From contig NC_035436.2 of assembly GCF_002127325.2 (NCBI RefSeq), positions 106,601,591-106,665,590 of the forward strand: a stretch of DNA of 64,000 bases, given 5' to 3'. The stretch is from Helianthus annuus. Taxonomy: Eukaryota > Streptophyta > Magnoliopsida > Asterales > Asteraceae. Below are positions 34,901 through 58,997 of this stretch, one piece after another. The notes under the pieces are model-generated. The model searched no databases and was not told the DNA's origin. It worked only from the letters and a program-made list of their open reading frames with translations. Made by a program: the position numbers and the translations under genes. The first letter of the stretch is position 1. Each line of letters starts with the position of its first letter.

Positions 34901-34989
34901 CTGGAATTTCCCGTGAACGCGTACATGTCACTGAACATATTCAAAAATATATCATCCATCTTGAATATACCTACAAAATCAGCCAACAC

Positions 34990-35550
34990 TTAGAAAAATT
35001 TTCAAATTTTTGAAAAATGTGACAAATGAGCGAAACTATCAACTATTGTGACAGATAAGCGAAACCACCCTAGTCTGTATAAGCGAAAGTAACAAATTGG
35101 TCGTATGAGCGACACTATGCTTGTCAGTAAGAGCGAAACTATATAGTTCGTATGAGCGAAAGTCAAATGTCCGTTCAAGCGAAACCTGTATGTTCATTCG
35201 AGCGAAACTATCAAGTTCTTTCGAGCGAAAGTACCGTAAAAGCGAAACCTGTATGTTCGAATAAGTGAAACTACAGATTGTTTTCAAGCAAAAGCTATGT
35301 ATTACGAGCGAAACCTTCGATGTCCGGATAAGCGGAACCTAGTTTTTAACTGATTTTAACCCTTTTTAAGCCGTGTTTTAACCTAAAACTTTCTAGGGTT
35401 TGTTAATTGTATGTTTTACACGTTATACTCGATTTTTAGGCCATTTCAACCATAGGAACCAGTTCAATTCGAAAAAGTATGAGAGAAAGTGAGTAGAAAT
35501 GAGAGAATTCTGTAGAATCAAGCTGTAGTAGTATGAACTCCTCGTCCTGA
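34990..35550 (-). repeat. Copia-A leader with an array of TTTCGCTT-type motifs
   Basis: Noncoding 5' leader in the minus sense. About a dozen AAGCGAAA/GAGCGAAA words (reverse complement TTTCGCTT/TTTCGCTC) lie at 35030-35345, spaced about 20-30 bp, often with an ACA-type word between them. The Copia-B and Copia-C leaders carry the same array. Confidence 0.88.
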
Positions 35551-35562
35551 GCTCTGATACCA
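35551..35562 (-). promoter_or_regulatory. Primer binding site of Copia-A
   Basis: GCTCTGATACCA on the plus strand is the exact complement of TGGTATCAGAGC, the initiator-Met tRNA site, two bases from the LTR. Confidence 0.9.
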
Positions 35563-35564
35563 CT

Positions 35565-35997
35565 TGTTGGACCGTGTTCCGACCCTAAACAGTCAGTTGA
35601 GAACATTCATCTTCACGTACGAAGGCGGAATCAACGTAAATTACACAGCTTTTCCTATTCAATTCCTTCTCTTTAATTGCTTTCTGATTACAATTTGACA
35701 GAGTTTCGTTACAAAAGCAATCCACAAGTTCCGCTCCAACGTACACGAATGACTGATCAGGTTTCGCTCAACCTGACTATTTATAGTCCACATGCTTTCG
35801 CTTATACGACATGCCGTATAAGCGAAACTACCTGCTAAACCACATGAGCGAAACCATATTGACACATAAGCGGAACTACTTCTACACATGTTCACAAAAG
35901 CAAAACTACAACATAAACTTCTAATTTGACTTTCAAGAACCTATGTTGACCTAAGATGTAATGCAGACGTAGTCAACAGACATTCCATGCATCAACA
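35565..35997 (-). repeat. 5' LTR of Copia-A
   Basis: 433 bp. Minus-strand TATA at 35777-35786, with the TTTCGCTTATACG-type inverted repeat just upstream in the element's sense. Confidence 0.94.
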
Positions 35998-36235: not shown

Positions 36236-36687
36236 TGTTGGTGCACTACATCTGTTGATTTCGTCTTGGATCGAGTCATTCATTGTATTGTATAGATTAG
36301 GGAAAGTTTTACGAGAAAACTGGGAATTATATGTGTTTATAGTAAAGGTTTCGCTCATAGGGATATTTAGGAGAGGTTTCGCTTATATGTACCTGAAGGT
36401 TTCGCTTATATGAACACATGAGGTTTCGCTCATGTGTGCATGTACGTAAAAGCGAAACCTCCAGGCCTATATATAGCATGTCATTCGAGCGAAACCATAA
36501 GGATTCCTTGGTATTCCACGCCGAAGTGCTGCGGTGTGAAGAACAAGCTGTAATTAGTGTCATATTAATACAAACAGTAGATTAAGTGAATATTCAGTTG
36601 TCTCTACCTACGTTTCTTGTTATTCCGCACCTGAAACGAAGTTGAACGCCTCTGATCAACTCGTTCGGGTCGAACCATGATCCTACA
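36236..36687 (+). repeat. 5' LTR of Copia-B
   Basis: TGTTGGTGCAC...GATCCTACA. TATA TATATATAG at 36468-36476. Upstream are four GGTTTCGCT motifs and an inverted one (AAAGCGAAACC at about 36449), forming an imperfect palindrome. Confidence 0.94.
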
Positions 36688-36689
36688 AG

Positions 36690-36701
36690 TGGTATCAAAG
36701 C
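36690..36701 (+). promoter_or_regulatory. Primer binding site of Copia-B
   Basis: TGGTATCAAAGC, one base different from the initiator-Met site of Copia-A and Copia-C. Confidence 0.85.
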
Positions 36702-37268
36702 TTGGGAGGAGGAGTTCTGCAGAGATTAGCTGGATTTCATCATCATTTCTTTCTTCTACACCTTCTTTCATCAATTCAGAAAGTTTTATCGGTCGAAATC
36801 TGCTCAAAATTTCACAGACTGTGCGCAATTGAACATAGACAAACCCTGGAAAGTTTCAGATCAAAATACGGACTAAAAATGGATAAAATCACCTTCGGAC
36901 TTGGTTCCGCTCTTTCGGATATAGTGTAGTTTCGCCTTTTTGGACAACTAGTTTCGCTCCTGTGTCATGTTATTGAGAGGTTCCGCTCCAAATTACTTAA
37001 TATTTTCGCTCTTGAGTCACATTAAGTGAGGTTTCGCTCCAAGTGTATCTTTGAGGTTCCGCTTTTAAGACACATCAGTAGTTCCGCTCTTGTAAACATA
37101 GTAGTTTCACTCTTTTGAACTTGATAGTTTCGCTCCAAGTGCACATTAGGGTTTCGCTTATAGTGCAACATAAGGTTCCGCTCATTAGGACATCTGGTTT
37201 TCTCTTTTAGTGCACAACTCCTGGTTTCGCTTATTTGTCACATATTTTGAAATACGTGTTGAAAAGTC
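36702..37268 (+). repeat. Copia-B leader with TTTCGCTC motif array
   Basis: Noncoding. About thirteen GTTTCGCTC/GTTCCGCTT words between 36925 and 37240, spaced about 20-30 bp, up to 30 bp before the gag ATG at 37269. Confidence 0.88.
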
Positions 37269-38642
37269 ATGGATACCGAGTTTTATAACGCGTGCGCAAC
37301 ACCGTCTTGTCCAGCCACCATTGTTCAAGCCATAAATATAGAAAACAAGACGGGAACCACCCAAAAGCCCCCGAAATTGATGAATATCGAAGAATATTAC
37401 GGGTGGAAAGATAGATTCGAGAACTGGTTTCAGGCTAATCATCTTAGGTCATGGGAATGTATATTGAAGAAATACGTGTTGCCTCGAACAGATTTGCAGG
37501 TTCTTAAAGAGTTATCAGAGTTCACGGATCAGGAACGGGTTATATACAAAGCCGAGAAAATGATGATTAGTCTGCTGCAACAAGCAATCAAAGAGGACAT
37601 TTTCATTTTGTTACAGCATGACAAAACTGCAAAGTCGATCTGGGATGCACTTAAAGTCAAATTTGAGGGTAGTGAGAATATGATAAAAAGCAAAAAGGCG
37701 CTGCTTAAGAAAGAGTTTGATTTGTTCAGCAGCTTACCGGGTGAAGACACAAAGAAGTTGATTGAGAGATATTGTCACCTAGTGCGATCAATGTCAATGT
37801 TGAGTATTACAAAAGATCGTGAAGAGTGGGTGGACAAGCTAGCCGATGCATTACCACAGAAAGAGTAGGGAACATATCTGATGATTTTGAAGAACACGGG
37901 TGTTTATGATGGGTTAACGATTTCTCAGTTCATCGAAAAGATTGAAAGTCAGGATTTGGAACAGCAGAAGATTGCTAGGATGAACAGTCCGAGTGGTCAA
38001 CAGGATGTAAAGATGTATTACAAAGGCAGTGTTCCGGTTCCAGAATCTGAGAGAAGTCCGAAAATCCAAACTGCATTCAGTGCTGGAGATTCATCAGAAA
38101 AAGCTGATCAGGGTTCTAGCAAAAGCAACAGTGGATTCTCATCATTTCTGAGTGTGAATCCTAAAGAATCAAATTCAAGCTTTCAGTCTCAAAGCACGAA
38201 AACTGGAAATGGCTACGTAACTCAGTGCAACATCGCTCTAAATCTTTCAGAAGGTCAAAGTTTTTCAGAAGACACTGCTAAAGACCACATGGCTCTACTT
38301 GGTTCTGTATTGTTATCTTATGAGGGTCTAGTAGCTGGTCGGATCGGAAATCCTATGCTCACCAAAGAGGATTACGATCAAATAGACGCCGAGGAGATGG
38401 AATTGATGGATATCAAATGGTGTCTTGCTAGTGTTCTTAGACGTGCTGAAAAGTTTAAAACGATTACTGTTGGTGAACTACGTCTGTCGACTACGTCTTA
38501 CATCGAGTCTAGTGGTGTATAGGTTAGACATGGCACGAAATCCTAGAAACATGTTATTGTATAGGTTTCGCTTATAGGGCATAGTCTAGGTTTCGCTTAT
38601 GTGTCAGTCATATAGTTTCGCTTATATGTCTTGATGTAGTTC

Positions 38643-38670
38643 CGCTTATACGTACATGTACGTATAAGCG
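38643..38670 (+). promoter_or_regulatory. 28-bp perfect palindrome upstream of the Copia-C TATA box
   Basis: Arms CGCTTATACGTACA and TGTACGTATAAGCG with no spacer, ending 13 bp before the TATA box. It consists of the TTTCGCTTAT motif facing its own inverse. The 3' LTR copy (45393-45420) has changes in the centre. Confidence 0.85.
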
Positions 38671-38683
38671 AAACCTTTAGTCC

Positions 38684-38691
38684 TATAAATA
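38684..38691 (+). promoter_or_regulatory. TATA box of the Copia-C 5' LTR
   Basis: CCTATAAATAGG context; the 3' LTR copy is at 45434-45441. Confidence 0.78.
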
Positions 38692-38920
38692 GGCAGTTAT
38701 TTCAAGCGGAACTAGACAGATAGTTAGAGGTGTTTTCTTCCGGTGAGCCACGAAGTGCTGCCGAAGTGCTGTCAGAACGTGTACTCGTGTTATTGATCAA
38801 TACAACAACAATATTAAAGTGAATCCGACTGAAATAGCACCAAATCATTAGTTTCTGCCTCTTGATTTGGATAGGAATTCTTCTGATAGACTCAAACAGG
38901 TCTAAACACGATCCTACAAG

Positions 38921-38932
38921 TGGTATCAGAGC
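38921..38932 (+). promoter_or_regulatory. Primer binding site of Copia-C
   Basis: TGGTATCAGAGC, exact initiator-Met form, two bases after the LTR. Confidence 0.9.
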
Positions 38933-39518
38933 TCAGGAGGAGAAGTTCTTGCCATTTCAGCTGCATTTCATCTATTTTCTACACTTTCTTCAAAGTTTTA
39001 AAATTCTTCACAGTAAAACCAGCTCAATTTCACACGGTGTACTCGGAATCATGTATTAGTAAGCCCTTGAAATTTTCAGATCTAAAATCGACTTAGAACT
39101 TAGGATTTTTGGGGTTTCGCTTATACGGACTCGTGCAAAAAGTGACGTAATCAAGTAGTTTCGCTTCAAAGGACAATAGTTTTCGCTTCAGTGTCATCTA
39201 AGTTGATAGTTCCGCTTCAAAGGGTCCGCTTCAAAGACACTTTGTTGTAGTTCCGCTCAAGAGTTCCGCTTGAACAGACAGTTCCGCTTATCTATAGAAG
39301 ATAGTTCCGCTTCTGTGAACAAAGTGGTTCCGCTTTACAGGTCCGCTTATTGAGACAAGTGGTTTTGCTTTTGTGACCAATTAGAGGTTCGCTTATCTGG
39401 ACATATTGAAGGTTTCGCTTGGTTGAACAATCCAGTAGTTTCGCTTTTCTTGATCAATTTCGCTTCAAGGGTCATTCTGTCTAAACTTGAAAATTTTGTG
39501 AACTCAGAACTTTGAACA
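38933..39518 (+). repeat. Copia-C leader with TTCCGCTT motif array
   Basis: Noncoding. More than a dozen GTTCCGCTT/GTTTCGCTT words between 39110 and 39475. Here most are TTCCGCTT, while in Copia-B most are TTTCGCTC, so the arrays have drifted by element. Confidence 0.87.
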
Positions 39519-42500
39519 ATGGACAACGAATTTTTATAACGCCTTTGCTAGCCCGATCTCAATTACTCAGAATGCTTTGATTGACCATGAAACCGGAACG
39601 TCTCAGAAACCGCCTAAACTCATGGATATCGATGATTATAACGTGTGGTCTGAACGTTTTGGAAACTGGGTCGAGGCCTATCACTTAGATGCGTGGGAAC
39701 ACACTGAAGAGCCATATGAAAGACCCACAAGAAACAACAAAGAGTTACCAATTCGGGAAATGAGTACTGAGGACAAAAAGAAATATCGAGATGAGAAACT
39801 CATGGTAAGTCTGCTTCAGCAAGCGATAAAAGAAGATATTCTGATTTTGCTTCAACATGACGGAACTGCGTATTCAATTTGGACTGAATTGGAAGCAAAG
39901 TTTGTTGGGAGTGATGATATGCTCAAAAATAAAATGTCTCTTATGAAGAAAGAATTTGACTTATTCCGTGGTTTGAAATCTGACAACACCAAGCAGATAA
40001 TTGATAGATATTGTAACTTGGTGAGAAACATGTCAAAACTTGGAATTAAGAAAGATACTGATGAATTGGTTGAAAAACTTGCAGATGCGCTACCACATGA
40101 AACATGGGGAACGTTTCTGATGATGCTGAGATCCAACAGAAAAGATTACAAGAATATGACACTGGGAGATTTCATCAAACACCTGGAAGCTCAAGAGATG
40201 GAGCAGAGGAAGATTGCCAGGATGAAGAATTATGATGGAGAACAGGATATTAGTTTGTACTAAAAGAGTGGTGCTACTGGATCAACAAATCATTCTCCGA
40301 AAATTGAAACTGCTTTTAGTGTTAAAGATTCTTCTGAAAAGAAATCTTCCCAGGGATCTAGCAGCTCAAGATTTTCATCATTCGATCCAAATATTTCTGT
40401 AACAAAGAAAGGAAGAAAACTTCAGTGCAATATTGTTCTTAGTATTGAAAATGATCAAGATTACACTGAAGAGATTGCTAAAAATCAAATGTCTTTGTTA
40501 GGAATGGTTCTTGAGTCTTATAGTAGTTTTGTGGCCGGAAAGATCAGTAATCCAATGCTCACGAAAGAGGATTACTATCAAATTGATGCTGAAGAGATGG
40601 AATTAATAGACATTAAATGGTGCATAGCTAGTGTGATGCGACGAGCTGAAAAGTTTAAACAAATTACGGGAAGAGATGATTTCCGTGATGCAAATGTTTC
40701 AACTTTAGGCTTTGATAAATCTAAAGTTACGTGTTTTCGTTTTAGGGAAAAGGGGCATTTCAAGAGGGAGTGCAAAAATCGTGAAGCTACTGGAGCCCAA
40801 AATCCTTTTAGAAACAACGATTATCACAAAAACGCAATTTATCATCAAGTCACACCACCAGCACAGCATCAGGCGCAAACTGCACATGGGAGAGATGTGA
40901 TTGATGGGACAAAAAGAGCATGTCTAAGCAAATATGAAAATTTTTCATGGGATAAATATATTCCAACAAACAGCAAAGTGTGTTTGGCAGAACAAGATGA
41001 TGAAAAGTTGGCTGAAGGTTTTTGTTGGGACGATTTTTGCCCAGATAAGTATCTCATGACCAAAGAGATGTCCAAAAACACTTCAAATGTTAATGCTTTC
41101 ATTGCTAACGCCTATGATTTGAAATGTGCAGAAAGAAGCAGGAAAGTCATGGAAGTTGCATAATCAAGACGGAGAAAGCTTGAAGAAGAAGAAGAAGAAG
41201 AAGAGGAAGAGAGATTAAAAGCTGAAGCTGAAGCTGAGAGAAAGAGAAGAGCTGAATTTTTACAATCAAACAGAAAAGTCAAAAAGGTTCCTGAATTTGA
41301 AGTAAAAATTGATGCAGAACCAGTTAAAGTTCCCGAAAAATGCATGAACTGTGATTCTTTAATCAAGCAGAACAATGAGTTGCTGCATAATATAATCAGA
41401 CTGAAAGAATCCTATGATACAATGAACAGAGAAATTAATAAGTATACTGATTCAAGTGGTGAACAAGCTGTGGCAATGAATACACTAAAGATAGCGTACC
41501 TGAGACAGCTTGATGATGCTAATTTTCATATAAAGAAATGTGATGATCTGGAGTTGGAGTTAGCAACGCAAAAGATAGAAACTGAGAAAGTTAAAAAATT
41601 ATTAGAAAGTTACTCATGTTCTACTTTTGTTGTTGACAGGATTTATCCGGTTGTGGAGAATTTGAAGACGTTTGAAGAAGTGAAGACGTCCGATGAAAAG
41701 AAATCTGTGACAAAAGATGAAGAAAAAATGAAGACTTCTGGTAAGAAATCAAGTGTGGTCTACAATAGATGTCCGCCCCCGGTCGAAAATGGATATTCAC
41801 CTCGAAATCCAAATTCCGAGAGAGTCGAAAAAGCAATAAACTTAGAATGGGAGTCTGGACCGTCGGATAACTTGCCAGAAAGTATTGATGTCACGTATAC
41901 GTCATCTGACACTGATCATGAGTTAAAGTTGATAAAAAGTGTGGTCGATCAGGTGTTGGATAAAGATGACAATGAGGAGTCAAATCCGGAGTCCAAACCA
42001 GAGTCAAAGTCTGTGTCTGATACATCAAAGTTGACAAATAAAAAGGACAAACGAGTTTATGATAAAGAGTTTTTACTTTCGAAATCTAATTTGAATGATG
42101 AATCGGTCAAAGTAGCATATACTTTGAAAGGTTCTGACAAATTATATTCTGATGAGAATTTTCCAATAAGAAGTGTCAGATTTGAAATGATTCAAAAGGT
42201 TTTCAAAATAACAGAAATTAATTTTTCTGAAATAAAAGAATTAAATCTTTCCGGAAAACCTAAACAATACACTTCAAGAGATCAACAAAGAATTAACAAG
42301 AAAATGGGTTACAATTGTGGTTATAGTTTCCAAAAGAAACCAAACCATAATCGTAATTTCAAAAAGAAAGGTCTTGGTTTTGTTCCACCGAAAAATTATA
42401 AAAATGAAAAAGTTTATAAACCAAGAACTATGTTTGTTTCAGGTAAGACGACAGAAGCTGAAAAAGAACAATCATTCAGAAAACAGACAAATCAGGAATT

Positions 42501-43170
42501 CCTTGCCAAGAAGCAAGAAGAACTGAAGAAGAATGATGTTCCGAAGAAGATTGAAAAGAGAACCTGTTTTCAGTGCAAGATTGCTGGTCATGTTGCTAGG
42601 GATTGTCCGAAGACATTCAAGCCAAAACAGGAAGTCTCTGGTAAAATGAAAGAAAAGGTTGTCGAGAAGACTGAACTGTCAACCCGGAAGTTTACTGGCT
42701 TTGAAAATTCAACTTTTGAGAAAAGAGAATGTTCAAAGAGTGCTTCAAGAAGAAAAGATAATGTGCAAAATAAAAAATGGGTTGTGAAAGGTTCAGGTAA
42801 TAAGTCTGGTGATGAATCTGATTCCACAAAATCAGAGGAGCCACATGTTGAGAAGAAGGTTGAAAGAAAAGTTCTAACTATGAATGATGAAAATTTTCCA
42901 CCGTTGCGTGCTGAAAATTTTATGAAGAAAGTTGGAAAAGTTGAAATTTCAAATCAATTTTATTCTAACAAGAAGAAATTTGATGTTGAAAAGACATTCA
43001 ACAGAAATGTGAAACACATTTTTGGCAAAATGGTCAATGGTAAGGCCAAAGGTGTTAAAGAATTTTATGCTGCCAAAAGAGGGGTTCACAAGTCTGTTAA
43101 AAGTAAAGATGATGAGATTATTATACCCAAGGAAGGTCAGGCTTGGGTGGATATATTTTTCAAAGAATAA
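39519..43170 (+). pseudogene. Copia-C gag (about 1,200 codons), one frameshift and two stops
   Basis: ATG at 39519 aligns with the Copia-B start. One extra T in the run at about 39531-39535 shifts the frame. Stops lie at 40261-40263 and 41161-41163; otherwise the frame is open to 43170. The capsid-like part (QKPPKLMDIDDYNVWSERF) lies near 39605. The first zinc knuckle has lost its second cysteine ([14 protein letters not shown] near 40735). An EEEEEEEE run and a long coiled coil follow (41180-41640). A DUF-like segment conserved in Copia-A and Copia-B (CPPPVENGYSPR) lies near 41770. The second knuckle CFQCKIAGHVARDC near 42570 is intact, and the end reads AWVDIFFKE. With two knuckles about 600 residues apart and a coiled coil between, this gag is unusual for Copia. 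Confidence 0.9.
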
Positions 43171-44090
43171 AAACCTGACTCGCTGGAGATCCCAAGTTGG
43201 TAATCGTGGATCATGAATCAGCATCCTTCTTAATCTGTGTTTGAGATTTTGCAGGACTTGCCGGAACTCCCAGGTTTGTAAGCGAGGAGTAGGAATCGGC
43301 ACCTTGAGAATTCAACCAACAGATGGTAATTGGTTGAAAAACAGGTTTGAAATGCTTAATTGCTAATTTTACAAGTGGTTGAGATTGATCTTACAAGTGG
43401 TTAATCAAGGTCATTAAATTGAACTTGAATTAACTATCATTCAAAATATTGGTAAAACAATGTGATGATTTGATCCCTAATTTTACAAGTGGTAAAATCA
43501 ACAAAACTTATTTTCCGGAAAAACTATTTTGATTAAAACAAACTTAAGTGTTTTGAAATCAATATGGGAAAATAGTTTGTTGTGAGGGGGAGTTCTGATC
43601 GTTTAAGCCAAACGGATGGAGAATTGAAGCATTTTTGATATCAGTTGTCAAAGTTTTTTTACAGTTTGTTTTGTGTTTCAAGTGTGTCTAGAGTTTAGAT
43701 ATTTGTCAAATTTCTTTAATGTGTTTGCATTTTAGGGGGAGTAGAAAATTTCAGAAAATCCAAAAACATTAGAAATTTTGAAAAAGTCAAAAACATGATA
43801 AAATCTAAAAATGAGTTTTTGTTGCATAAAAGAGGAAATGATAGTACATCAGTGGACTATCACAACATGCTAAAGAAATGTAAAGTCACAATGTGATAAA
43901 CAATCTTACCGTGGATGTGTCAGTAGGTTTTTGCACATTTAGTAAACTGTAACGAGATATAAACCTAAAATCAAACTTGCTTATCCTGTGGGTTAACAAA
44001 ACTGCTTGGATATATAGGTAACCCCTGAAATCTTGTTTGAAAGGTCCCTTATTCTGAGATATTAGGTCTTTATGCTCAGTGATATCTGGG

Positions 44091-44146
44091 GTATTATCCC
44101 AGGACTTCTGTTGTATGGAAATACTGACCTAGTCCCCGGATAATGC
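44091..44146 (+). other. Hairpin H1, Copia-C copy
   Basis: Arms GTATTATCCCAGGACT (44091-44106) and AGTCCCCGGATAATGC (44131-44146); inner GTAT/ATAC around GGAA (44113-44124). Confidence 0.82.
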
Positions 44147-44265
44147 TTTCCGCAAAAAGCTTTGGAATATAAGCTCGCCCTCAGCATGCTGATGAAACAA
44201 TAAAATTGATAGTCGCTGCTGTTGTAATTAAAAGATCCTCTAAAGGGGACACACCGAAAGTCGAA

Positions 44266-44314
44266 GCCGTTATCTCTCTGCGTATACGGAAGTATCGACC
44301 TGAGCTCTCACGAC
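44266..44314 (+). other. Hairpin H2, Copia-C copy
   Basis: Arms GCCGT/ACGAC (one mismatch, the only uncompensated change I found in H2) and inner ATAC/GTAT around GGAA (44284-44295). Confidence 0.72.
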
Positions 44315-45201
44315 CCTCGCACATAACCCCTTTACAGATATCATCTGTGGTATACTCACCTGTAAGACTAAATATTGGGATCTGGATACGGGAGTATATT
44401 CAAGTAGTGGGACACACGGATAAGTTTAAGTATCTAAGACACTAATTGCGTATCTTGAAACAGATGAAATCTGTGTGAAAATTTAAGAGGACAAACATAC
44501 TGAGAATCTAGGTAAATTGTTTAGAGCTTAAAATGAAATCAAGCTTAACGGTGTTGATGATATGCCTCAGAAACTGATATGATCCTCTTGCACGTACTCA
44601 CAAAAATAGTGTTTGTAAATATTTCATTTCTGCATTGTTTCGTGTTTTTACATGTGGTATTAGTTTCTTTGCTTTTGAAAAATCCAAAAAGATTTTCGAC
44701 AACTGGTGTTGAGAAGCTGATTTTCGAAGTTCAACGTGCTAAACATGAAGAACAGGTTTGGGAGAGAGTATGTGATGTTGTTAAGTTTGCTTGAAAAGAG
44801 TCAGTAAAAGATTCTGAATGCAAAATCATTTCTATAAGTTACCAACATTGTTTCTTAATTGTTGAAAAGATTTAATCTTTGAAGAAATTTATGTTTGGGT
44901 AGAGATTGTGCAGGTATATTTGTGCCAGGTGATGATCCTGAGATAGTATAGAGTCAGATAACGATCTTGAACCTGATGGAAGCCTGTCCACGATCTTAGA
45001 ATGAAGCTGTGAATTCCAAACTATGATCCCAGCAGATTGAGAGGGGGAGTTTGAAGACACCGTGTCAACATTCGAGAGAGAGGAGTTTGTTGATGATGAA
45101 GATAGAGTTTGCGGATTCTTGCAATGATAAATTCTTCAGAGGAAAATTGAAGACTGATAAAGATTATAGGTTGACAATCGAAGACTCGAAGACTCCGTCA
45201 A

Positions 45202-45217
45202 CATCCGAGGGGGAGTC
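45202..45217 (+). promoter_or_regulatory. Polypurine tract of Copia-C
   Basis: CATCCGAGGGGGAGTC directly before the 3' LTR. Confidence 0.82.
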
Positions 45218-45668
45218 TGTTGGTGCACTACGTCTGTCGACTACGTCTTACATCGAGTCTAGTGGTGTATAGGTTAGACATGGCACGAAATCCTAGAAAC
45301 ATGTTATTGTATAGGTTTCGCTTATAGGGCATAGTCTAGGTTTCGCTTATGTGTCAGTCATTAAGTTTCGCTTATATGTCTTGATGTAGTTCCGCTTATA
45401 CATACATATACGTATAAGCGAAACCTTTAGTCCTATAAATAGGCAGTCATTTCAAGCGGAACTAGACAAATAGTTAGAGGTGTTTTCTTCCGGTGAGCCA
45501 CGAAGTGCTGCCGAAGTGCTGTCAGAACGTGTACTCGTGTTATTGATCAATACAACAGCAATATTAAAGTGAATCCGACTGAAATAGCACCAAATCATTA
45601 GTTTCCGCCTCTTGATTTGGATAGGAATTCTTCTGATCGACTCAAACATGTCCGAACACGATCCTACA
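45218..45668 (+). repeat. 3' LTR of Copia-C
   Basis: 451 bp, TGTTGGTGCAC...GATCCTACA. TATA at 45434-45441. Confidence 0.95.
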
Positions 45669-46200
45669 ATTACTAGAAGAAATGACTTTCTTGATGCTCA
45701 TGTATCTACTTTAGGTTTTGATAAATCTAAAGTTACTTGTTTTCGATGCAGGGAGAAAGGCCATTTCAAACGGGAATGCAAGAACAGGGAAGCTAGTGGC
45801 GTTCAGAATCCGTTCGGAAAAAACGACTTCTATCGGAAAGCCATTTATCAGCAGGTTGGTCAATCATGTAACATCCGTTAAAAATCGACCCGTTTCCAAA
45901 ATCCGACCCGTTTTAAATTTTAGATCCTAATCCTTGAAACTCGAGAGCTTCGCAAAATAATTAATAATTTAAGTCGTTTATAAATATGATAATTTATTCG
46001 TTTAAATAATTAAACTAATTAATGTTGTCATTAAAAGTTTTTACTTTTATAAAAATAAGTTAGTTAAACTATGTTAGAAAGTTAGTTTTGTTTAAGAGTT
46101 TAACTTAATGAAAGTTTACCTAACTAAATAATTATCCTTCTAAAAGTTTAGGGACCTTGGTGTTATTTGGGAAAGTGTAAAAGATAAAAATAACAAAAAA

Positions 46201-46278
46201 AGAGCAATGCCCAGGATTCGAACCTGCGGCCACCCTGCTTTCACATCCACATCATATACCAGTTGAGTTATAACAGTT
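46201..46278 (-). other. tRNA-like sequence with Pol III A/B boxes, 5' LTR copy
   Basis: On the minus strand the B box GGTTCGAATCC is exact (46214-46224). The A box has one change (46259-46270, TAACTCAACTGG). Spacing fits a tRNA, but the acceptor arms do not pair. Confidence 0.65.
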
Positions 46279-46517
46279 TTGGTACAAACGTTGCAATCAA
46301 ATAAATTATATTCGCTTTCTTTCAGCGAGTTTCCTTTTGAATCAATCTTGCCGCCAAGACAGAAAGTTGACAACCCTTTGTTTCCATCCTTCTCCTCCTG
46401 ATTTCTCGAGACAATGATTGATTCCGCGTTTCCTTTTTGTCAATCAATCATCAACTCACTTCCTAACTTACGACCAATCAACAACTCATTTCTAAATTTC
46501 GCGAGATCTTAGAATGC

Positions 46518-46525
46518 TATAAATA
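46518..46525 (+). promoter_or_regulatory. TATA box of the Gypsy-C 5' LTR
   Basis: GCTATAAATATCACC; the 3' copy is at 53016-53023. Confidence 0.72.
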
Positions 46526-47182
46526 TCACCACTCCACCTCGACATCCTCACACCACCCCCAACACTCTTTGCTCGTTACCGGAATTTGAGCATCGCCGGA
46601 GAGAACCACATCATCGCCGGAGAGAACCACAGCATTGCCAGAGAACTGGAGCTCCGCTTCCCGTCTGAACCGCACCAGAACCCTTTTGTTTTGGTATATC
46701 CTCCGATCATCCCACTCGGTTGTACTTCTTGATACGCTTAAGCAAAACAAACTGTGATGCGACCTGGTCTTGTTGAGAATGATTAAATAATGAAGATGAT
46801 AACAAGCCGCCAGAAACCGATGTCGCGGGAACCAAACGGAGAACGCGACAGGGAACACTTCATTTCGTTTCGGTAAACATTTCGTTATTCCTTTTGTTTC
46901 TTTCCAGTTGGTTTTGTCTAAATCTTCTGTCAACACATTTTTTTGTTCCATTCATTTTGTTTAACTGATGTTATTGAATCATATATGATAACAGCAAAAT
47001 ACAGTACATGTCTATTCATTATTCTATTTTGAATGATGAAGAAGATGACTTATAACTAGGAAACATAGTTTTTATTTAACTAGACCTAATGTTATAGTAA
47101 ATGCTGTTTATATTTTCTACATATATATTCCACTAGTTAGTTTATATATATAATTTTTATTGAATGGCAACTATAGCCTATT

Positions 47183-47656
47183 TGTAGGATCGAATACCGA
47201 CCTATTTGAGTCGTTCAGAGAAGTTCGTATCCGAATTAAGAGGCGGAAACTAATAATTCGGTGCACTTGAAGCTGAATTCACTTTAATCTTGTTGTTGTA
47301 TTGCTATTGAACTCGATTACAATGTTTTACAGCACTTCGGCAGCACTTCGTGGCTTACCGGAAGAATTCACCCTTAACTATGTGTTTGGAACCACTCTTA
47401 TGACCTATATATATACTTCTGGAACCGCTTATACGTCATGTCCGTATGAGTGGTTCAACAACTTGACGTAAAAGAGGTCCAAGATCATGACACAAAAGCG
47501 GTCCTAGACTAGATATGACACAAAAGCGGTCCTAGATCATGTAAACATAAACAATCCTATACAAATCACTATTTCTAGGATTCCGTGCCATTTCTGATCT
47601 GTTTAATCTTCAAGACTCGATGGAAGACATAGTCAGCAGACGTAGGTGCACTAACA
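47183..47656 (-). repeat. 3' LTR of Copia-F
   Basis: 474 bp. TATATATA near 47406-47414. Here the family motif reads AAAAGCGGTCC in place of AAAAGCGAAAC, and the palindrome before the TATA box has changed to match (CCACTCATACG...CGTATAAGCGG). Confidence 0.9.
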
Positions 47657-48564
47657 AACTCCCCCTCGGATGTTGACGGAGTCTTCATCAATGTCTTCAT
47701 TACAGTCTGCAATCTACAATCTTCATCAGTCGACAATCTACCTCTGGAAAAATTTGTCGTTCCAAGAATCCTGGTTCTCTATCTTCATCATCAACAAACT
47801 CTTCTCTCTTGAATGTTGACTCGGTGTCTTCAGACTCCCCCTCTCACACAGCTGGGATCGTAGTCTGAAAGTCAATCTTTCACTGGTTCTGAGATCTTTA
47901 ACAGGCTCTCATCAGGTTCTAGATCGAAACCTGGCTCTTTAACACCTGCACAATCTCTACCCAACCATAAGTTTCTATAAAGATAAACTTTTCAACAATT
48001 TTAAAAACTATATAGAACCAATTAGCAATAATGATTTTGCATTCAAGAATATTACTGGTTTTTATCAAAAAACAACTTTATCATCAACTCTCAAACACTC
48101 TCCAAACCAGTTCTTCAAGTTTAGCACTTTGAATCTTGAAAATCAGTATCTTAACATCAGTTGTCGAAAATCTTTTTGATTTTTTTCAAAATTTATGCTA
48201 AAACACACCAAAAATCTTTTTGATTTTTCTGAATGAAAGATAAATGCAGAAATGAAATATTTACAAACAATATTTTTGTGAGTTTGTGCAAGAGGATCAT
48301 ATCAGTTTTGAAACATATCACAAACACCGTTAAGCTTGATTACATGTTAAGTTCTAAACAATTTACCTAGATTGTCAGTATGTTTGTCCACTTAAATTTT
48401 CAACACAGATTTCAATCGATTCGAGATACGATATTAATGTTTTAAAGACTTATAATTAATTGTGTATCACTCCACTTGAATATACTTCCACATCCAGATC
48501 CCAAATATTCAGTCTTACAGGTGAGTATACCACAGATGATATCTGTAAGGGGTAATGTGCGAGG

Positions 48565-48613
48565 GCCGTGAGAGCTCAGGTCGATACTTCCGTATACGCA
48601 GAGAGATGACGGC
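48565..48613 (-). other. Hairpin H2, Copia-F copy
   Basis: Outer GCCGT/ACGGC; inner ATAC/GTAT around GGAA in the element's sense. Confidence 0.75.
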
Positions 48614-48732
48614 TTCGACTTTTGGTGGGTCCCCTTTAGAGGATCTTTTGTTACAACAGCAAAGATTACCAATTTTATTGTTTAATCAGTTTGCTGAGGG
48701 CGGCGCTTATATTTCAAAGCTTTTTGCAGAAA

Positions 48733-48788
48733 GTATTATTCGGGGACTAGGTCAGTATTTCCATACAGCAGAAGTCCCGGGATAATAC
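48733..48788 (-). other. Hairpin H1, Copia-F copy
   Basis: Outer arms pair at 14 of 16 positions; inner GTAT/ATAC around GGAA (plus strand GTATTTCCATAC at 48755-48766). Confidence 0.8.
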
Positions 48789-49612
48789 CCCAGATATCAC
48801 CGAGCATAAAGACCTAGTATCCCAGAATACGGGACCTTTCAAACAAGATTTCGGGGGTTACCCATATATCCAAGAATAGTTACCCACGAATTAAGCAAGT
48901 TTGATTTAGATTTATATCTCGTTTCAATTTACTAAATGTGCGAAAATCTACTGACACATCCGCAGTAAGATTGTTTATCACATTTAAACTTTACATTTCT
49001 TTAGCATGTCGTGATAGTTCACTGATGTACTATCATTTCCTCTTTATCGCAACAAAAACTGATTTTTCAATTTTATCATGTTTTTGTCTTTTTCACATTT
49101 TCTGATGTTTTTGGATTTTCTAAAAAATTCTTACTCCCCCTAAAATTCAAATACATCTAAAGAAAATTGAAAACAAACTGTAGAAAACTTGACAACTGAT
49201 ATCGAAACACTTCAATTCTCCATCCGTTTGGCTTAAACAATCAGAACTCCCCCTCACAACAAACTATTTTCCCATAATGATTTCAAAACACTTATGTTTG
49301 TTTTAATCAAAATGGTTTTTCCGGAAAATAAGTTTTGTTGTTTTTACCTTTTGTAAAAATGGGGCAAAATCATCACATTGTTTACCAATTCTTGAATGAT
49401 AATTAAATCAAGTTCAAATTAATGACCCTGATTTAACCACTTGTAAGATCTACACCAATCACAACCATACAACCACTTGTAAGTTTAGCAATTCAAGCTC
49501 TTCAAACCTGTTTTTCAACCAATTACCATCTTTTGGTTGAATTCTCAAGGTGCCGATTCCTACTCCTCGCTTACAAACCTGGGAGTTCCGGCAAGTCCTC
49601 GCTTACAACCAC

Positions 49613-49816
49613 TCATACGGACATGACGTAAAAGAGGTCCAAGATCATGACACAAAAGCGGTCCTAGACTAGATATGACACAAAAGCGGTCCTAGATCAT
49701 GTAAACATAAACAATCCTATACAAATCACTATTTCTAGGATTCCGTGCCATTTCTGATCTGTTTAATCTTCAAGACTCGATGGAAGACGTAGTCAGCAGA
49801 CGTAGGTGCACTAACA
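49613..49816 (-). repeat. Truncated 5' LTR of Copia-F
   Basis: Matches 47455-47656 almost exactly, including AAAAGCGGTCC repeats, and ends GCACTAACA. The half carrying the TATA box and the primer-site junction is missing. Confidence 0.88.
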
Positions 49817-50467
49817 CTATTGCTTCCCTGTGTTCGTTTACAAATTGAAAGTAAAATGCTTTGACCAAATTCCCAAAATAATATATATATAAATCTTCTT
49901 AATCATAAACACTTTTCTTTAACAGTGGACTTATCCTTTTCATAAATTTACATTCTTTTAAATTAAAATCCTACTAAACCTACACATAAATAAATAACAG
50001 TTCTTTTGTATTTTATTTTTTTAAACTCAATAACAATTTAAATAATTAACAATTTATTATAAATCTTTTAAAACATTAAATAACTTATAAACAATAGATA
50101 TTAAGATTATATTTAATCTACAACTTTTAACAGGTTCGTTACGTGTTATTCTAATCATCTAGGATAATTGCTCCTGTTCGTTCTCTTGGATTTTCTCCGT
50201 CCTTACTCGTACGTTACTTACAAGAAATCGCAACGTAATCACTGTTGATGTTCAAGAAATAAAGCAATCAAGCTAGGATGGAACTAGAAACCCATTTTAG
50301 CATAGTATTTTATTATGTTTAAATTATGATGTACTTGAAAACAATGTATTCCCATTTGATATTTATGAAATGAATTTAATTCATATTGTCACATTAGTGT
50401 TATGTTGTTTTGAGCAATTTGTACGTCTCATCCCGATGTTTCCGCCATCGGTTGGGGTGTGACAGAT

Positions 50468-50479
50468 TTGTATCAGAGC
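50468..50479 (+). promoter_or_regulatory. Primer binding site of Gypsy-C
   Basis: TTGTATCAGAGC just after the LTR. A second copy with the exact TGGTATCAGAGC lies at 50552-50563. Confidence 0.78.
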
Positions 50480-50537
50480 CATAACTATAGGGAATTAGGA
50501 AGATTGCCATACTTTTCCCTAGACTATAGTAGGAATA

Positions 50538-50562
50538 CTCTGATACCAGATTGGTATCAGAG
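50538..50562 (+). promoter_or_regulatory. Second primer-site copy held in a perfect hairpin
   Basis: CTCTGATACC (50538-50547) and GGTATCAGAG (50553-50562) are perfect 10-bp complements with a 5-base loop. The downstream text (CATAACTATAGGGAATTAGG) repeats that after the first primer site, so the region is duplicated. Confidence 0.8.
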
Positions 50563-50563
50563 C

Positions 50564-51229
50564 CATAACTATAGGGAATTAGGAATGCCTTGCCTAGTCT
50601 ATAGTTTAAGAGCTTATTCACTATGTGTTTCTTAAAACAACCTCCTTTCTATCTTCTTTGCTTCCCCTACTCTCTTTTGGACTTTTAATATACAAGTCTT
50701 TCCTAGGGCTAACACAATACACACTTGGAAGCCTTGAAGACACTCTTACAACACAATCGAAAAGATTCATCAAGATAGGGGTGATTCCCACACTTGGTGA
50801 TGATTTTCACTCAGCTATACTTTGATTTTTGCACGAAATCTACCCTCAAGTTAGGAGTGATATCCAAACCTTGATGGGAGTTTTCCATTTCATATTCTAG
50901 TGGACCCTTATCTTATGATAAGTACCAACCACATTAGGGTACGATGTTGTCAAGTTAGAGGTGATACTCGCATCTTGTTAACTAGTCCCACTCTTCGATT
51001 TTCAATCTCGCCAAAGTTTCGATTTTCCCAATCGATTAAGGACGTGTAGTAACTGGAAGGACAAATATCGTTAGTCGCTTCTCGATGAGAGTATTTGTCT
51101 ATTAGGCCAAAGCATGTTTCCTTAATTTGAAAAGGACTTCGATTTACTTTGGAATAGTCTTATGTTACGTTCATTGACGATCCACATTTGCATTGAATCT
51201 CTTTTATGTTATAATCTATATGATTTAAC
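50564..51229 (+). other. Gypsy-C interior, 5' part, noncoding
   Basis: No gag. C/T-rich stretches with TTAGGAGTGATAT-like words recurring near 50780, 50860, 50960 and again near 51840 and 51905. No domain recognised. Confidence 0.6.
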
Positions 51230-51672
51230 ATTTACGACCTCGGTCACTTCGGTGTCGAGGGAAGCAAATTTACGACCTCTGTCACTTCGGTGTCGAGGGA
51301 CGCACATTTACGACCTCGGTCACTTCGGTGTCGAGGGACGCACATTAAACATTTACGACCTCGGTCACTTCGGTGTTGAGGGACACACATTAAACATTTA
51401 CAACCTCGGTCACTTCGGTGTCGAGGGACGCACATTAAACATTTACAACCTCGGTCACTTCGGTGTCGAGGGACGCACATTTACGACCTCGGTCATTTCG
51501 GTGTCGAGGGACGCACATTTACGACCTCGTTCACCTCGGTGTCGAGGGGCGCATATTATAACTTTACGACCTCGGTCACCTCGGTGTCGAGGGGCGCACA
51601 TTATACTTTACGACCTCGGTCACCTCGGTGTCGAGGGGCGCACATTATAACTTTACGGCCTCGTTCACTCTG
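51230..51672 (+). repeat. Tandem array of eleven hairpin units in Gypsy-C
   Basis: Eleven units of about 38-46 bp. The core reads CCTCGGTCACTTCGGTGTCGAGG: CCTCG/CGAGG outer stem, CAC/GTG inner stem, and a TTCG loop closed by C-G. Later units have CTCG in the loop. Any reading frame through it is a by-product of the repeat. Confidence 0.92.
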
Positions 51673-52099
51673 GTGACGAAAGATGCACAATACTCTAGTA
51701 ATTCTCCCTACACGAGCCACATACATACATAAACATATCATACTAATCCTTTTCATACACAATCTATATCTATGAATTCAAAATATCACCACAAGATTTA
51801 ATCCACTCATATTCCCAAAAATGGAAGCTTATCATCCAGATAGGAGTGATTTCCTTCCCTTGATGATTAGCTCCCCTCACTTTTCAACTTAACCAATGAG
51901 CTAGGGGTGATTTCCTTACCTCGGAGGTAGTTACCAACTCTTCTTCGTTCTCAATGATACTTTATATTTGAACGTTTATTTTATTTCAAACTTGGAGATA
52001 CGATACGCACTATCTTCGCAATTTAAATCTAATAATAACAATATCTCGAGAACAAACTAAATTTATAATGCTTTCATTATCTATGTTACACTACGGGAA

Positions 52100-52210
52100 A
52101 TTCATGATTATGCTATGTGAAACTAGTGGAACCTTTTATATGCTATTTGAAACTAGTTGAACATTTTATATGCTATGTGAAACAAATTGAACCTGTTATA
52201 TGCTATGCTA
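52100..52210 (+). repeat. Three tandem 36-38-bp repeats in Gypsy-C
   Basis: Three units containing TATGCTATGTGAAACTAGT or close variants, followed by a TTGAACnTTTTA-like word. Confidence 0.75.
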
Positions 52211-52326
52211 CGTGACGCATTCATGAAAACAATTTTCCTTAAACAAAGACATTATGATCAAGTGTCATTCATTCTACGTTTTCTTTTAAATCTTTAAATG
52301 TCATCTTTTCAAAAGTCTTTTCTCTT

Positions 52327-52363
52327 AGATTTCGAGGACGAAATCTCCTAAAGTAGGGGAGAC
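52327..52363 (+). promoter_or_regulatory. Polypurine-tract region of Gypsy-C with hairpin
   Basis: AGATTTCG/CGAAATCT around AGGA (52327-52346), then AAAGTAGGGGAGAC up to the LTR. The stem differs from Gypsy-A by a paired change and stays perfect. Confidence 0.8.
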
Positions 52364-54323
52364 TGTAACATCCGTTAAAAATCGACCCGTTTCCAAAACC
52401 CGACCCGTTTTAAATTTTAGATCCTAATCCTTGAAACTCGAGAGCTTCGCAAAATAATTAATAATTTAAGTCGTTTATAAATATGATTATTTATTCGTTT
52501 AAATAATTAAACTAATTAATGTTGTCATTAAAAGTTTTTACTTTTATAAAAATAAGTTAGTTAAACTATGTTAGAAAGTTAGTTTTGTTTAAGAGTTTAA
52601 CTTAATGAAAGTTAACCTAACTAAATAATTATCCTTCTAAAAGTTTAGGGACCTTGGTGTTATTTGGGAAAGTGTAAAAGATAAAAATAACAAAAAAAAG
52701 AGCAATGCCCAGGATTCGAACCTGCGGCCACCCTACTTTCACATCCACATCGTATACCAGTTGAGCTATAACAGTTTTGGTACAAACGTTGCAATCAAAT
52801 AAATTATATTCGCTTGCTTTCAGCGAGTTTCCTTTTGAATCAATCTTGCCGCCAAGACAGAAAGTTGACAACCCTTTGTTTCCATCCTTCTCCTCCTGAT
52901 TTCTCGAGACAATGATTCATTCCGCGTTTCCTTTTTGTCAATCAATCATCAACTCACTTCCTAACTTACGACCAATCAACAACTCGTTTCTAAATTTCGC
53001 GAGATCTTAGAATGCTATAAATATCACCACTCCACCTCGACATCCTCACACCACCCCCAACACTCTTTGCTCGTTACCGGAATTCGAGCATCGCCGGAGA
53101 GAACCACATCATCGCCGGAGAGAACCACAGCATTTCCGGAGAACTGGAGCTCCGCTTCCCGTCTGAACCGCACCAGAACCCTTTTGTTTCGGTATATCCT
53201 TCGATCATCCCACTCGGTTGTACTTCTTGATACGCTTAAGCAAAACAAACTGTGATGCGACCTGGTCTTGTTGAGAGTGATTAAATAATGAAGATGATAA
53301 CAAGCCGCCAGAAACCGAAGTCGCGGGAACCAAACGGAGAACGCGACAGGGAACGCTTCATTTCGTTTCGGTAAACATTTCGTTATTCCTTTTGTTTCTT
53401 TCCAGTTGGTTTTGTCTAAATCTTCTGTCAACACATTTTTTTGTTCCATTCATTTTGTTTAACTGATGTTATTGAATCATATATGATAACAGCAAAATAC
53501 AGTACATGTCTATTCATTATTCTATTTTGAATGATGAAGAAGATGACTTATAACTAGGAAACATAGTTTTTATTTAACTAGACCTAATGTTACAGTAAAT
53601 GCTGTTTATATTTTCTACATATATATTCCACTAGTTAGTTTATATATATAATTTTTTTTGAATGGCAACTATAGCCTATTGCTTCCCTGTGTTCGTTTAC
53701 AAATTGAAAGTAAAATGCTTTGACCAAATTCCCAAAATAATATATATATAAATCATCTTAATCATAAACACTTTTCTTTAACAGTGGACTTATCCTTTTC
53801 ATAAATTTACATTCTTTTAAATTAAAATCCTACTAAACCTACACATAAATAAATAACAGTTCTTTTGTATTTTATTTTTTTAAACTCAATAACAATTTAA
53901 ATAATTAACAATTTATTATAAATCTTTTAAAACATTAAATAACTTATAAACAATAGATATTAAGATTATATTTAATCTACAACTTTTAACGGGTTCGTTA
54001 CGTGTTATTCTAATCATCTAGGATAATTGCTCCTGTTCGTTCTCTTGGATTTTCTCCGTCCTTACTCGTACGTTACTTACAAGAAATCGCAACGCAATCA
54101 CTGTTAATGTTCAAGAAATAAAGCAATCAAGCTAGGATGGAACTAGAAACCCATTTTAGCATAGTATTTTATTATGTTTAAATTATGATGTACTTGAAAA
54201 CAATGTATTCCCATTTGATATTTATGAAATGAATTTAATTCATATTGTCACAATAGTGTTATGTTGTTTTGAGCAATTTGTACGTCTCATCCCGATGTTT
54301 CCGCCATCGGTTGGGGTGTAACA
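52364..54323 (+). repeat. 3' LTR of Gypsy-C
   Basis: 1960 bp, TGTAACATCCG...GGTGTAACA. TATA at 53016-53023. Confidence 0.94.
52700..52778 (-). other. tRNA-like sequence with exact Pol III A and B boxes, 3' LTR copy
   Basis: Minus strand: A box TAGCTCAACTGG (52757-52768) and B box GGTTCGAATCC (52712-52722), 34 bases apart. Both fit the tRNA promoter consensus. The T-arm stem pairs at four of five positions, but the acceptor stem does not pair, so I do not call a tRNA gene. Confidence 0.7.
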
Positions 54324-57300: not shown

Positions 57301-57812
57301 TTGTGAAAGGGGGAGTTCTGATTGTTTATGCATAGTGGATGGCGAATTGATGCAATCCGATGTCAGTTGTCAATTTTGTACAGTTTGTTTTGTGTTCACG
57401 TGGGTCTAGAGCTTAGTTGTTTTTAAATTTCTTTAATGTGTTAGAATTTTAGGGGGAGTAGAAAATTTCAGAAAATCGAAAAACATTAGAAAATTTGAAA
57501 AATCCAAAAACATGATAAAATAAAATAAAAAAAACGAGTTTTGTTGTGAAAAGAGGAAATGATCGTACATCAGTAGACTGTCACAACATGCTAAAGAAAT
57601 GTAATGAGAAAATGTGATAAACAATCTCACTGAAGATATGCCAGTAGGTTTTTACACGCTTAGTAAATTGTGACAAGATATAAACATAAAAATTTCAAAC
57701 TTGCTTGTTCTGTGGGTTAACAACTTCTTGGATATATAGGTAACCCCTGAAATCTTGTTTGAAAGGTCCCTTATTCTGAGATAGTAGGTCTTTATGCTCA
57801 GTGATATCTGGG

Positions 57813-57868
57813 GTATTATCCCAGGACATCTGCTGAATGGAAATTCTGACCTAGTCCCTGGATAATAC
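57813..57868 (+). other. Hairpin H1, Copia-B copy
   Basis: Arms GTATTATCCCAGGACA and AGTCCCTGGATAATAC pair over the first nine positions and again near the loop. The inner stem is GAAT/ATTC around GGAA (57835-57846), compensated relative to Copia-C. Confidence 0.8.
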
Positions 57869-57986
57869 TTTCCGCAAAAGCTTGAAACATAGCTTCGCCC
57901 TCAGCATGCTGATGAAACAATAAAATTGATAGTCGCTGCTGTTGAAATTTAAAAGATCCTCTAAAGGGGACACACCAAAATTCGAA

Positions 57987-58035
57987 GCCGTCATCTCTCT
58001 GCTTATACGGAAGTATCGACCTGAGCTCTCACGGC
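57987..58035 (+). other. Hairpin H2, Copia-B copy
   Basis: Outer GCCGT/ACGGC; inner ATAC/GTAT around GGAA. Confidence 0.77.
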
Positions 58036-58980
58036 CCTCGCATCTAACCCCTAAACAGATATTAGTTGTGGGATACTCACCTGTAAGACTGAATATTGGG
58101 ATCTGGATACGGGAGTATATTCAAGAAGTGGGACACGGATAAGTTCAAGTGCTTAAAACATTAATATAGTATCTCGGAACAGTTTAAATTTGTGTGAAAA
58201 TTTAAGTGGACAAATATACTGACAATCTAGGTGAATTGTTTAAAACTTAAAATGAAATAAAGCTTAATGGTGTTGGTGACATGTCTCATAATTTGATATG
58301 ACCCTCTTACACAAACTCACAAAAATATTGTTTGTAAATATTTTAGTTTTTTGCTTTATTCTGATTTTACAAATAGTGTTTACTTTCTTTCAGAAAAATT
58401 CAAAAAGATTTTGTGTGTGTTTTAGCATAAACCTTAAAAAAAAAAAGAAAAAGTCAAAAAGATTTTCGACAACTGATGATGGAAAGCTGATTTTCAAAAT
58501 TCTATGTACTAAACATGATGATATTGTTTTGAGGGGGAGTGTGTTTTAATTGTCAAAATATGTTTTTAAATCAACAAGTGGTTCATCATGTGGGTGTGAT
58601 TTGAGGAAGAGTAGGTTTTGGTGCAGATAGTTAGTTTTGAGAGGGAGTTATCTGACTATGTCAGGAGTTGGTGCACTACAAATTGTTAAATTTAGAATAT
58701 TTACTTCTGGGTTAAGTATGTGCAGGTTTAGTCAAGTTTCGATCCTGGAAATTGAAGAATCTATAGCTTGAACCAGGTTTCGATCTTGGAACATGAAGAG
58801 CCAGAAAATGATCCTGTATCAGATATTGCTGAAGAACAAAGGAATGCCAGCAAATCGAGAGGGGGAGTCTGAAGATATTCAAGTGTTGAAGAAGATAGAG
58901 AGAGAGAAAAGCCCAGAGACTAATCAAGACTGAAGATGTGAAGACACAGCATTGTCATGACTCGATGAACGACTCCATCA

Positions 58981-58997
58981 ACATCTGAGGGGGAGTT
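58981..58997 (+). promoter_or_regulatory. Polypurine tract of Copia-B
   Basis: ACATCTGAGGGGGAGTT directly before the 3' LTR. Confidence 0.8.

Follow-up and report, generated by a model that had tools for sequence, protein, structure and literature searches.

The window that we analysed, a stretch of 64,000 nucleotides from sunflower (Helianthus annuus, contig NC_035436.2, positions 106,601,591 to 106,665,590 of the forward strand), is a nest of LTR elements, among them two gag-only elements (E1 and E2) and a pol-bearing one (E3), whose coordinates are collected in Table 1. E1 contains three consecutive gag frames (39502-43170), parted by two stops, in which Pfam detects a Copia gag domain and one CCHC knuckle; RT, integrase and RNase H domains were not found by Pfam in the three frames searched, and with two LTRs around gag and without pol the element is of the TR-GAG type. 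E2 likewise has Pfam matches to both of these domains, gag and CCHC knuckle, while E3 carries integrase and reverse transcriptase domains, together with a knuckle in which, as read from the translation, Y stands in place of the H of CCHC. At 47179-49816 (minus strand) we additionally observed an LTR piece, about 2 kb resembling the post-gag region (including the noncoding block described below) and a second LTR piece, probably the product of a deletion after insertion; the LTR pieces, 196 nt each, match each other at 99% identity.

These elements belong to a high-copy Sirevirus-like plant Copia lineage. Multiple AGGGGGAG tracts, a linker feature given for Sireviruses in the available portion of PMC2829016, are present both in E1 (four, at 43585, 43734, 45042 and 45208, with the 3' LTR at 45218) and in E2 (five, at 57308, 57451, 58532, 58860 and 58988, with the 3' LTR at 58998), the last lying 10 bp before the 3' LTR. 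The 5' junction described in the same portion, CA/ATTGG (or AGTGG) followed by TATCAGAGC, appears in E1 as CA/AGTGGTATCAGAGC. The AT/TG attachment site reported there for 20 elements was not found in either element, E1 having TC/TG and E2 TT/TG, and we therefore call the lineage only Sirevirus-like. Other features of the window include a tandem array at 51185-51692 with units of about 45 nt, each containing an inverted repeat (CCTCG...CGAGG); an Rfam match to the plant snoRNA R71 at 23710-23816 (minus strand; 45.3 bits, gathering threshold 40), which sits between LTR-like repeats at 21119-22813 and 27238-28933; and many loose GTTTCGCTTATACGGAC-like words in the 5' leaders of E1 (38919-39518) and E3 (34990-35565, minus strand), also seen in the E1 LTR.

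Table 1. Elements, conserved noncoding blocks and RNA hairpins in the window
Feature	Position	Strand	Details
E1, gag-only element	38468..45668	+	LTRs 97.1% identical; target duplication ATTAC
E2, gag-only element	36236..59448	+	split by nested insertions; LTRs 97.6% identical; duplication ACTTA
E3, pol-bearing element	7270..35997	-	interrupted; LTRs 93.8% identical; duplication AGTAA
Conserved noncoding block of E1	43734..~44660	+	starts at internal AGGGGGAG
Block in E3	8430..9330	-	begins ~30 nt past the end of the pol frame
H1 of E1	44091..44146	+	outer stem 44091-44106/44131-44146; inner stem 44113-44116/44121-44124; loop 44117-44120
H1, 6627 copy	6627..6683	+	inner stem TTGC/GCAA
H1 of E3	8913..8968	-	
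H1, probable deletion derivative	48733..48788	-	~2 kb internal part between LTR pieces, aligning to post-gag region
H1 of E2	57813..57868	+	
H1, copy truncated at window end	63619..63674	-	inner stem GAAC/GTTC
H2, second GGAA hairpin of E1	44260..44320	+	inner stem 44284-44287/44292-44295; outer stem 44266-44270/44310-44314
H2 inner hairpin, 6627 copy	6820..6831	+	GAAC-GGAA-GTTC
H2 inner hairpin of E3	8765..8776	-	ATAC-GGAA-GTAT
H2 inner hairpin, 48733 copy	48584..48595	-	
H2 inner hairpin of E2	58005..58016	+	
H2 inner hairpin, 63619 copy	63477..63488	-	
Predicted RNA domain, ~360 nt	44031..44393	+	RNAalifold, 121 copies

A noncoding block in the 3' part of these elements is shared by six copies in the window, with a mean pairwise identity of 70-90% per 50-nt bin across 43750-44650 (E1 coordinates) compared with 17-64% in all remaining bins looked at, a drop that partly reflects nested foreign DNA in the flanks of the 6627 copy and perhaps of others. 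The comparison of E1 with E3 does not suffer from this: 893 bp of the block align with 81% identity, and the other DNA alignments between the two elements comprise an LTR stretch of about 105 bp, 44 bp at the primer-site end, a 287-bp patch within gag (68%) and two further short patches, with Gag proteins 28-46% identical over longer stretches (49% in one 37-residue patch). The block is the best-kept DNA between the full and the dependent element, which suggests that it may be readable in cis by the replication machinery. A protein-coding block was considered and rejected, the longest stop-free sense run reaching only 41-90 residues in the six copies. Searching Rfam with 43700-44700 at E-values up to 1 gave no matches. 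A degenerate pattern for the hairpin H1 likewise gave none in a viral contig collection, where a pattern for the C-terminal gag frame returned 600 pattern matches and no relative.

Within this block lies H1, a hairpin with an outer stem and a four-pair inner stem, of which the window holds three copies on each strand. The first-pass annotation had placed all six copies correctly, and the inner stems that it listed (TTGC/GCAA, GTAT/GTAC, GTAT/ATAC twice, GAAT/ATTC and GAAC/GTTC) match the sequence exactly. Its outer stem of 16 bp does not hold, as the number of paired positions is never 16 and ranges from 13 (6627 and 57813 copies) through 14 (44091 and 48733) to 15 (8913 and 63619). Position 10 of the outer stem is C.C or C.T in all six window copies and, in the same register, is paired in none of the 121 copies of the wider set defined below. 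Directly under the inner stem, a U.U mismatch (44112/44125) is constant in 121/121 copies, and the pair below it is canonical in 119 of them (C-G 86, U-G 32, U-A 1). Taken as a whole, the initial observation of positions, stems and loop is thereby partly confirmed.

For comparisons beyond the window, we searched one 3.01-Gb assembly of 334 contigs and assembled three overlapping sets of copies. The largest, of 121 copies, combines 65 best-match loci (68 minus three that repeat window copies), the 6 window copies and 50 places drawn from 100 listed of 16,681 arm-pattern matches; the first and third batches of these 50 were picked for inner-sequence variety, which may raise the variant count, and all four inner pairs form in 45 of the 50 and fewer in 5. 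A set of 77 copies joins the same 50 to the 6 window copies and to 21 of 23 places beyond 23.43 Mb found with a downstream anchor, so that 71 of the 77 were found by patterns leaving the inner stem free; the two anchor places without H1 (L120 and L126) were left out. The smallest alignment, of 36 copies, adds to the 6 window copies a subset of 30 from the 50 arm-pattern places. Compensation was assessed with purpose-written scripts and a tree-based null, within one genome.

The first-pass annotation had argued that H1 changes in sequence while its pairing does not, as expected of a selected structure, and for the inner stem this holds far beyond six copies. Searching with exact arms and the 12 inner positions left free, we obtained 16,681 genome matches (8,313 + 8,368), against 0 for a reversed control. 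Inner position 2 in these copies is T-A 7,920 times and A-T 7,989 times, with T.T in 5 and A.A in 8; these four counts total 15,922 of the 16,681 because the patterns also fix the position-1 pair, they are biased to young copies, they exclude the 6627-type subfamily (which has different letters beside the stem), and they come from non-independent copies, most of which inherit their state. At position 2, both paired states have reached thousands while the unpaired intermediates stayed at a handful, so that natural copies amount to a mutagenesis experiment on one base pair, with about 8,000 for each paired form against 5 and 8.

Phylogenetic analysis of the 121 copies pointed to the same pair. 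The pair 44114/44123 is canonical in 121/121 copies, and the tree branches on which its two columns change, 12 in number, are identical, giving a co-change overlap of 1.0, the highest among 6,244 pairs of columns that lie 4-45 columns from each other and change at least six times each (99% quantile 0.33), followed by column pairs of the H2 stem. Counting, in windows of four pairs, the double changes that replace one standard pair by another, we found 21 in the H1 inner stem, compared with a maximum of 7 in 60 simulated alignments, and in the 77-copy set 14, compared with a maximum of 6 in 200 simulations, the simulated null being one without recombination between copies. The 36-copy alignment (33 distinct rows) shows two-sided changes in four of five inner pairs, two of the four resting on one row, where shuffles average 2.1 and 6/500 are as high; its 27 compensated cells stand against 8.2 +/- 2.9 in shuffles (0/500 as high), and the count of further pair types does not exceed that of shuffles in these 36 copies (417/500 as high).

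Copies located independently of the hairpin arms behave in the same way. An anchor sequence situated some 90 nt 3' of H1 has 6,677 + 6,599 genome matches, and H1 is present at 21 of 23 consecutive anchor-found places; of the two exceptions, one has lost most of H1 by deletion and the other carries different DNA there. Loss of pairing in most copies, which had been named at the outset as an outcome that would count against H1, is not seen here: all four inner pairs form in 21/21 copies, as they do at 13/13 further anchor-found places absent from the arm-pattern matches listed. The inner stem is thus conserved by compensation, in gag-only and pol-bearing elements alike, and we regard it as near certain that H1 is a real, selected sense-RNA hairpin. 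Support for this selection is comparative and not energetic, the single-copy folding energy of H1 being unremarkable (z between -1.6 and -2.0 for either strand, in the two folding windows holding all of H1).

The outer stem presents a different picture: the expectation that covariation would appear in both stems of larger alignments was borne out above the null for the inner stem and failed for the outer one, which is kept almost without compensation. Among 36 copies two-sided change occurs in 0/14 outer-stem pairs, and among 121 copies we found one double change, at 44101/44136, with the pair 44098/44139 formed in only 86/121. Pairing of the outer stem is maintained by near-constancy and tolerance of G.U. 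The top score of a raw column-pair scan (20 simulations) and many other scores do not belong to base pairs (e.g., 44084/44305), so that subfamily history or exchange inflates that statistic, and helices with at least two two-sided pairs were not above the null (10, compared with 2-22 in eight simulations).

The loop of H1, described at first as an invariant GGAA, is GGAA in all six window copies and varies beyond them. Among the 121 copies we counted GGAA in 102, GGTA in 9, GGTG in 3, GAAA, AGAA and CGAA in 2 each, and GGAT in 1. A GNRA tetraloop has the loop sequence G-N-R-A; the proposed assignment to this class fits GGAA (102/121) and GAAA (2) and does not fit GGTA, GGTG, AGAA, CGAA or GGAT. 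Because GGTA and GGTG loops recur at many places among the genome-wide H1 matches listed, GNRA is not a family-wide rule, and what most H1 loops have in common is a leading GG and a final purine. The initial interpretation of H1 as a selected structure with a GNRA loop and two covarying stems is, as a whole, partly supported.

We also asked which molecule carries the structure. G.U pairs exist only in the RNA of one strand, the opposite strand showing A.C in their place, and at inner position 4 the genome copies contain T.G, a pair in sense RNA only, 7,916 times and C.A 18 times. Single changes in the H1 and H2 stems run the same way: on internal branches 20 lead to G.U and 3 to A.C (two-sided p 0.0005), and on terminal branches, whose changes should be dominated by post-insertion decay, 40 lead to G.U and 22 to A.C (p 0.03). 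The selected molecule is the sense RNA. Selection on DNA instead (a cruciform or protein-binding palindrome, as in Sirevirus LTRs), or on an antisense RNA or small-RNA precursor, could appeal to folding scores that are similar on both strands, to a stop-free antisense run of about 134-136 residues in the 63619 copy, and to the LTR-concentrated maize Copia hairpins that attract small RNAs according to the available part of PMC10760457; yet H1 lies outside the LTR, the antisense run reaches only 78-101 residues in the other five copies, and the T.G and C.A counts together with the 20:3 bias on internal branches leave a DNA palindrome or antisense RNA strongly disfavoured and, in our judgement, barely credible. 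The antisense frame itself (63146-63556) is probably a chance feature of the 63619 copy, given the shorter runs in the other five.

A further explanation dispenses with structural selection and supposes that a few ancestral hairpin variants were spread by recombination between subfamilies, both close arms moving together. The arms are indeed only 4-10 nt apart, clade-linked non-pairs do score high, a non-pair within H2 (44285/44295) has the second-highest co-change (0.92), and some of the 12 co-changes at 44114/44123 may be exchange and not new mutation. Exchange, however, cannot give rise to novel paired variants, yet two or more paired forms occur at each of the four inner positions of H1 among the 121 copies; nearby columns do not generally co-change (99% quantile 0.33, compared with 1.0); and the unpaired forms number 5 and 8 against about 8,000 for each paired form among exact-arm copies. 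Pure exchange between subfamilies was rejected on the co-change of 44114/44123, which stands far above nearby columns, and we consider it very improbable.

H1 is accompanied by a second hairpin, H2, built on the same plan of a four-pair stem, GGAA and an outer stem. Its inner stem is paired in 120/121 copies at 44284/44295 and in 120/121 at 44285/44294, its loop is GGAA in 113/121, and it shows 20 double changes among 121 copies (simulated maximum 7 in 60), while the 6 in the 77-copy set only equal the null maximum of 200 simulations. The outer stem of H2 also covaries, with three two-sided pairs and five double changes. H2 is very likely a real covarying hairpin.

RNAalifold places H1 and H2 in a larger predicted domain, in which closing stems formed by 44031-44088 with 44335-44393 would enclose H1, hairpins at 44179-44224 and 44236-44249, and H2. 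Within the first of these two hairpins, 44186-44189/44215-44218 shows 11 double changes among 121 copies (simulated maximum 7) and 8 among 77 (maximum 6), and the second (44237-44240/44245-44248) shows 8 among 121 (maximum 7). The register with double changes in the 44179-44224 hairpin, 44188-89/44215-16, differs from that of RNAalifold. Most closing-stem pairs are invariant or vary through G.U; two-sided ones include 44047/44378 (CG 69, TA 36, TG 13) and 44084/44339 (AT 72, GC 36, GT 13), and we consider the modelled closing stems likely. A third hairpin at 44386-44397, with the loop GGGA in most copies (also AGGA and GAGA), is paired in 116-119 of 121 copies at each pair and gives no covariation because it is nearly invariant; its formation would exclude the outermost closing stem, so that the two may act as a switch. 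Four-pair stems with a GGNR loop number three in the 10.5 kb of E3 searched, including H1 and H2, and eight in the 7.2 kb of E1, three of them in the block (H1, H2 and the GGGA hairpin), and are hence not confined to the block.

To our knowledge, little is understood of the way in which LTR retrotransposons of plants select their genomic RNA, or of the spread of gag-only elements. The stem sequence of these hairpins is free, the pairing is constrained and the GG is nearly always kept, which suggests a protein reading a loop on a stem, and the presence of one block in gag-only and pol-bearing elements fits packaging or trans-mobilisation. We propose, with somewhat less than even confidence, that the 3' structured RNA domain contains a putative packaging signal recognised by Gag, which would let gag-only elements use the pol proteins of full elements. 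H1 and H2 would present loops beginning with GG (GGAA in most copies, GGUA or GGUG in others) at the tip of short stems of indifferent sequence, the CCHC knuckle region of Gag, the most obvious candidate reader, would read these loops, and this reading would mark full-length genomic RNA for packaging, whereby gag-only elements could enter particles carrying the pol proteins of full elements. The location at the 3' end may moreover separate genomic RNA from short gag mRNAs, which, if produced through splicing and early termination, would lack the signal. A more specific version, a 3' packaging signal common to full and gag-only Copia elements, made of two GG-loop hairpins with drifting stems, by which Gag would tell genomic RNA from early-ending gag mRNAs in a mirror image of the retroviral 5' layout, is one that we hold only tentatively. 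Precedents for two of these steps come from the parts of the literature available here: the knuckles of HIV-1 NC bind the exposed G of a GGUG tetraloop, and NC also binds a GGAG tetraloop (PMC7599994), and plant elements produce short GAG mRNAs via splicing and early termination (PMC7730604).

The same domain might serve other ends, among which we rank effects on export or stability first and effects on translation or 3'-end formation second. Some retroviruses have a constitutive transport element that lies past their last gene and ahead of the 3' LTR, and the chief rival to packaging, which we think unlikely though it deserves attention, is that the domain acts as an RNA export, stability or unspliced-RNA element: it too sits between pol and the 3' LTR, it has a predicted long-range stem with several arms, and splicing yields several isoforms from each of two sunflower Copia elements (from the part of PMC7730604 available), so that full-length RNA may depend on a route of export. 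The occurrence of one kind of GG-loop on two hairpins, on the other hand, suits repeated binding of one protein, though possibly a host protein. We also know of no clear NXF1/TAP counterpart in plants, which we count against export, and constitutive transport elements resemble the domain in position and in being structured RNA, whereas the block has no match to any Rfam family in the search given above. A role in translation or 3'-end formation, such as gag-pol recoding or the shielding of long 3' tails from decay, strikes us as improbable; the block forms part of the 3' region of the transcript and in E3 follows the pol frame closely, but in E1 it begins roughly 560-580 nt past the end of gag, so that a fixed distance to the stop codon is not conserved. 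For the packaging proposal, the H1 counts give exact and cheap predictions for binding and probing, and the block is a possible marker linking non-autonomous elements to their partners.

The first-pass annotation knew of no described element of this kind, and, judged by titles and the beginnings of abstracts in mostly open-licence literature, no such element in the 3' region of plant Copia elements came to light among the papers listed; in the part of PMC12218528 available, none of six looked-for words is present. Likeness to Sireviruses lies also in the CA/AGTGG-TATCAGAGC 5' junction and a large gag (available portion of PMC2829016), and a further difference in LTRs that here measure about 450 bp. 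In that same portion, Bousios et al. 2010 describe an inverted repeat that folds into a stem loop enclosing the LTR-proximal terminal tract, and cite another at the gag/pol boundary, whereas H1 lies in mid-linker, more than 1 kb upstream of the LTR. Maize Copia elements likewise contain hairpin-forming sequence, which, unlike H1, is found mainly in the LTRs and has a CACCGG palindrome as its commonest motif; the word 'compensatory' does not occur in the part of PMC10760457 available.

Gag-only LTR elements have been reported from sunflower (PMC9784723), and, according to PMC7730604, BARE-2 takes its Gag from BARE-1. TR-GAG and BARE-2 types are dependent elements of a comparable kind, the former gag-only as here; a shared structured RNA block is undescribed in the available parts of these two sources, whereas the block of E1 and E2 is also present in the pol-bearing E3. 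The closest parallels to H1 and H2 themselves are retroviral packaging hairpins. Those of HIV-1 (SL2/SL3) are likewise small and have G-rich tetraloops, and GGUG, a loop variant here, is among them (part of PMC7599994); here, there are two per domain. Murine leukaemia-type viruses have paired GACG hairpins (a reference title in PMC7599994). The retroviral hairpins lie in the 5' leader, those of HIV-1 being bound by NC, whereas the putative packaging hairpins H1 and H2 lie 3' of pol in a Copia lineage.
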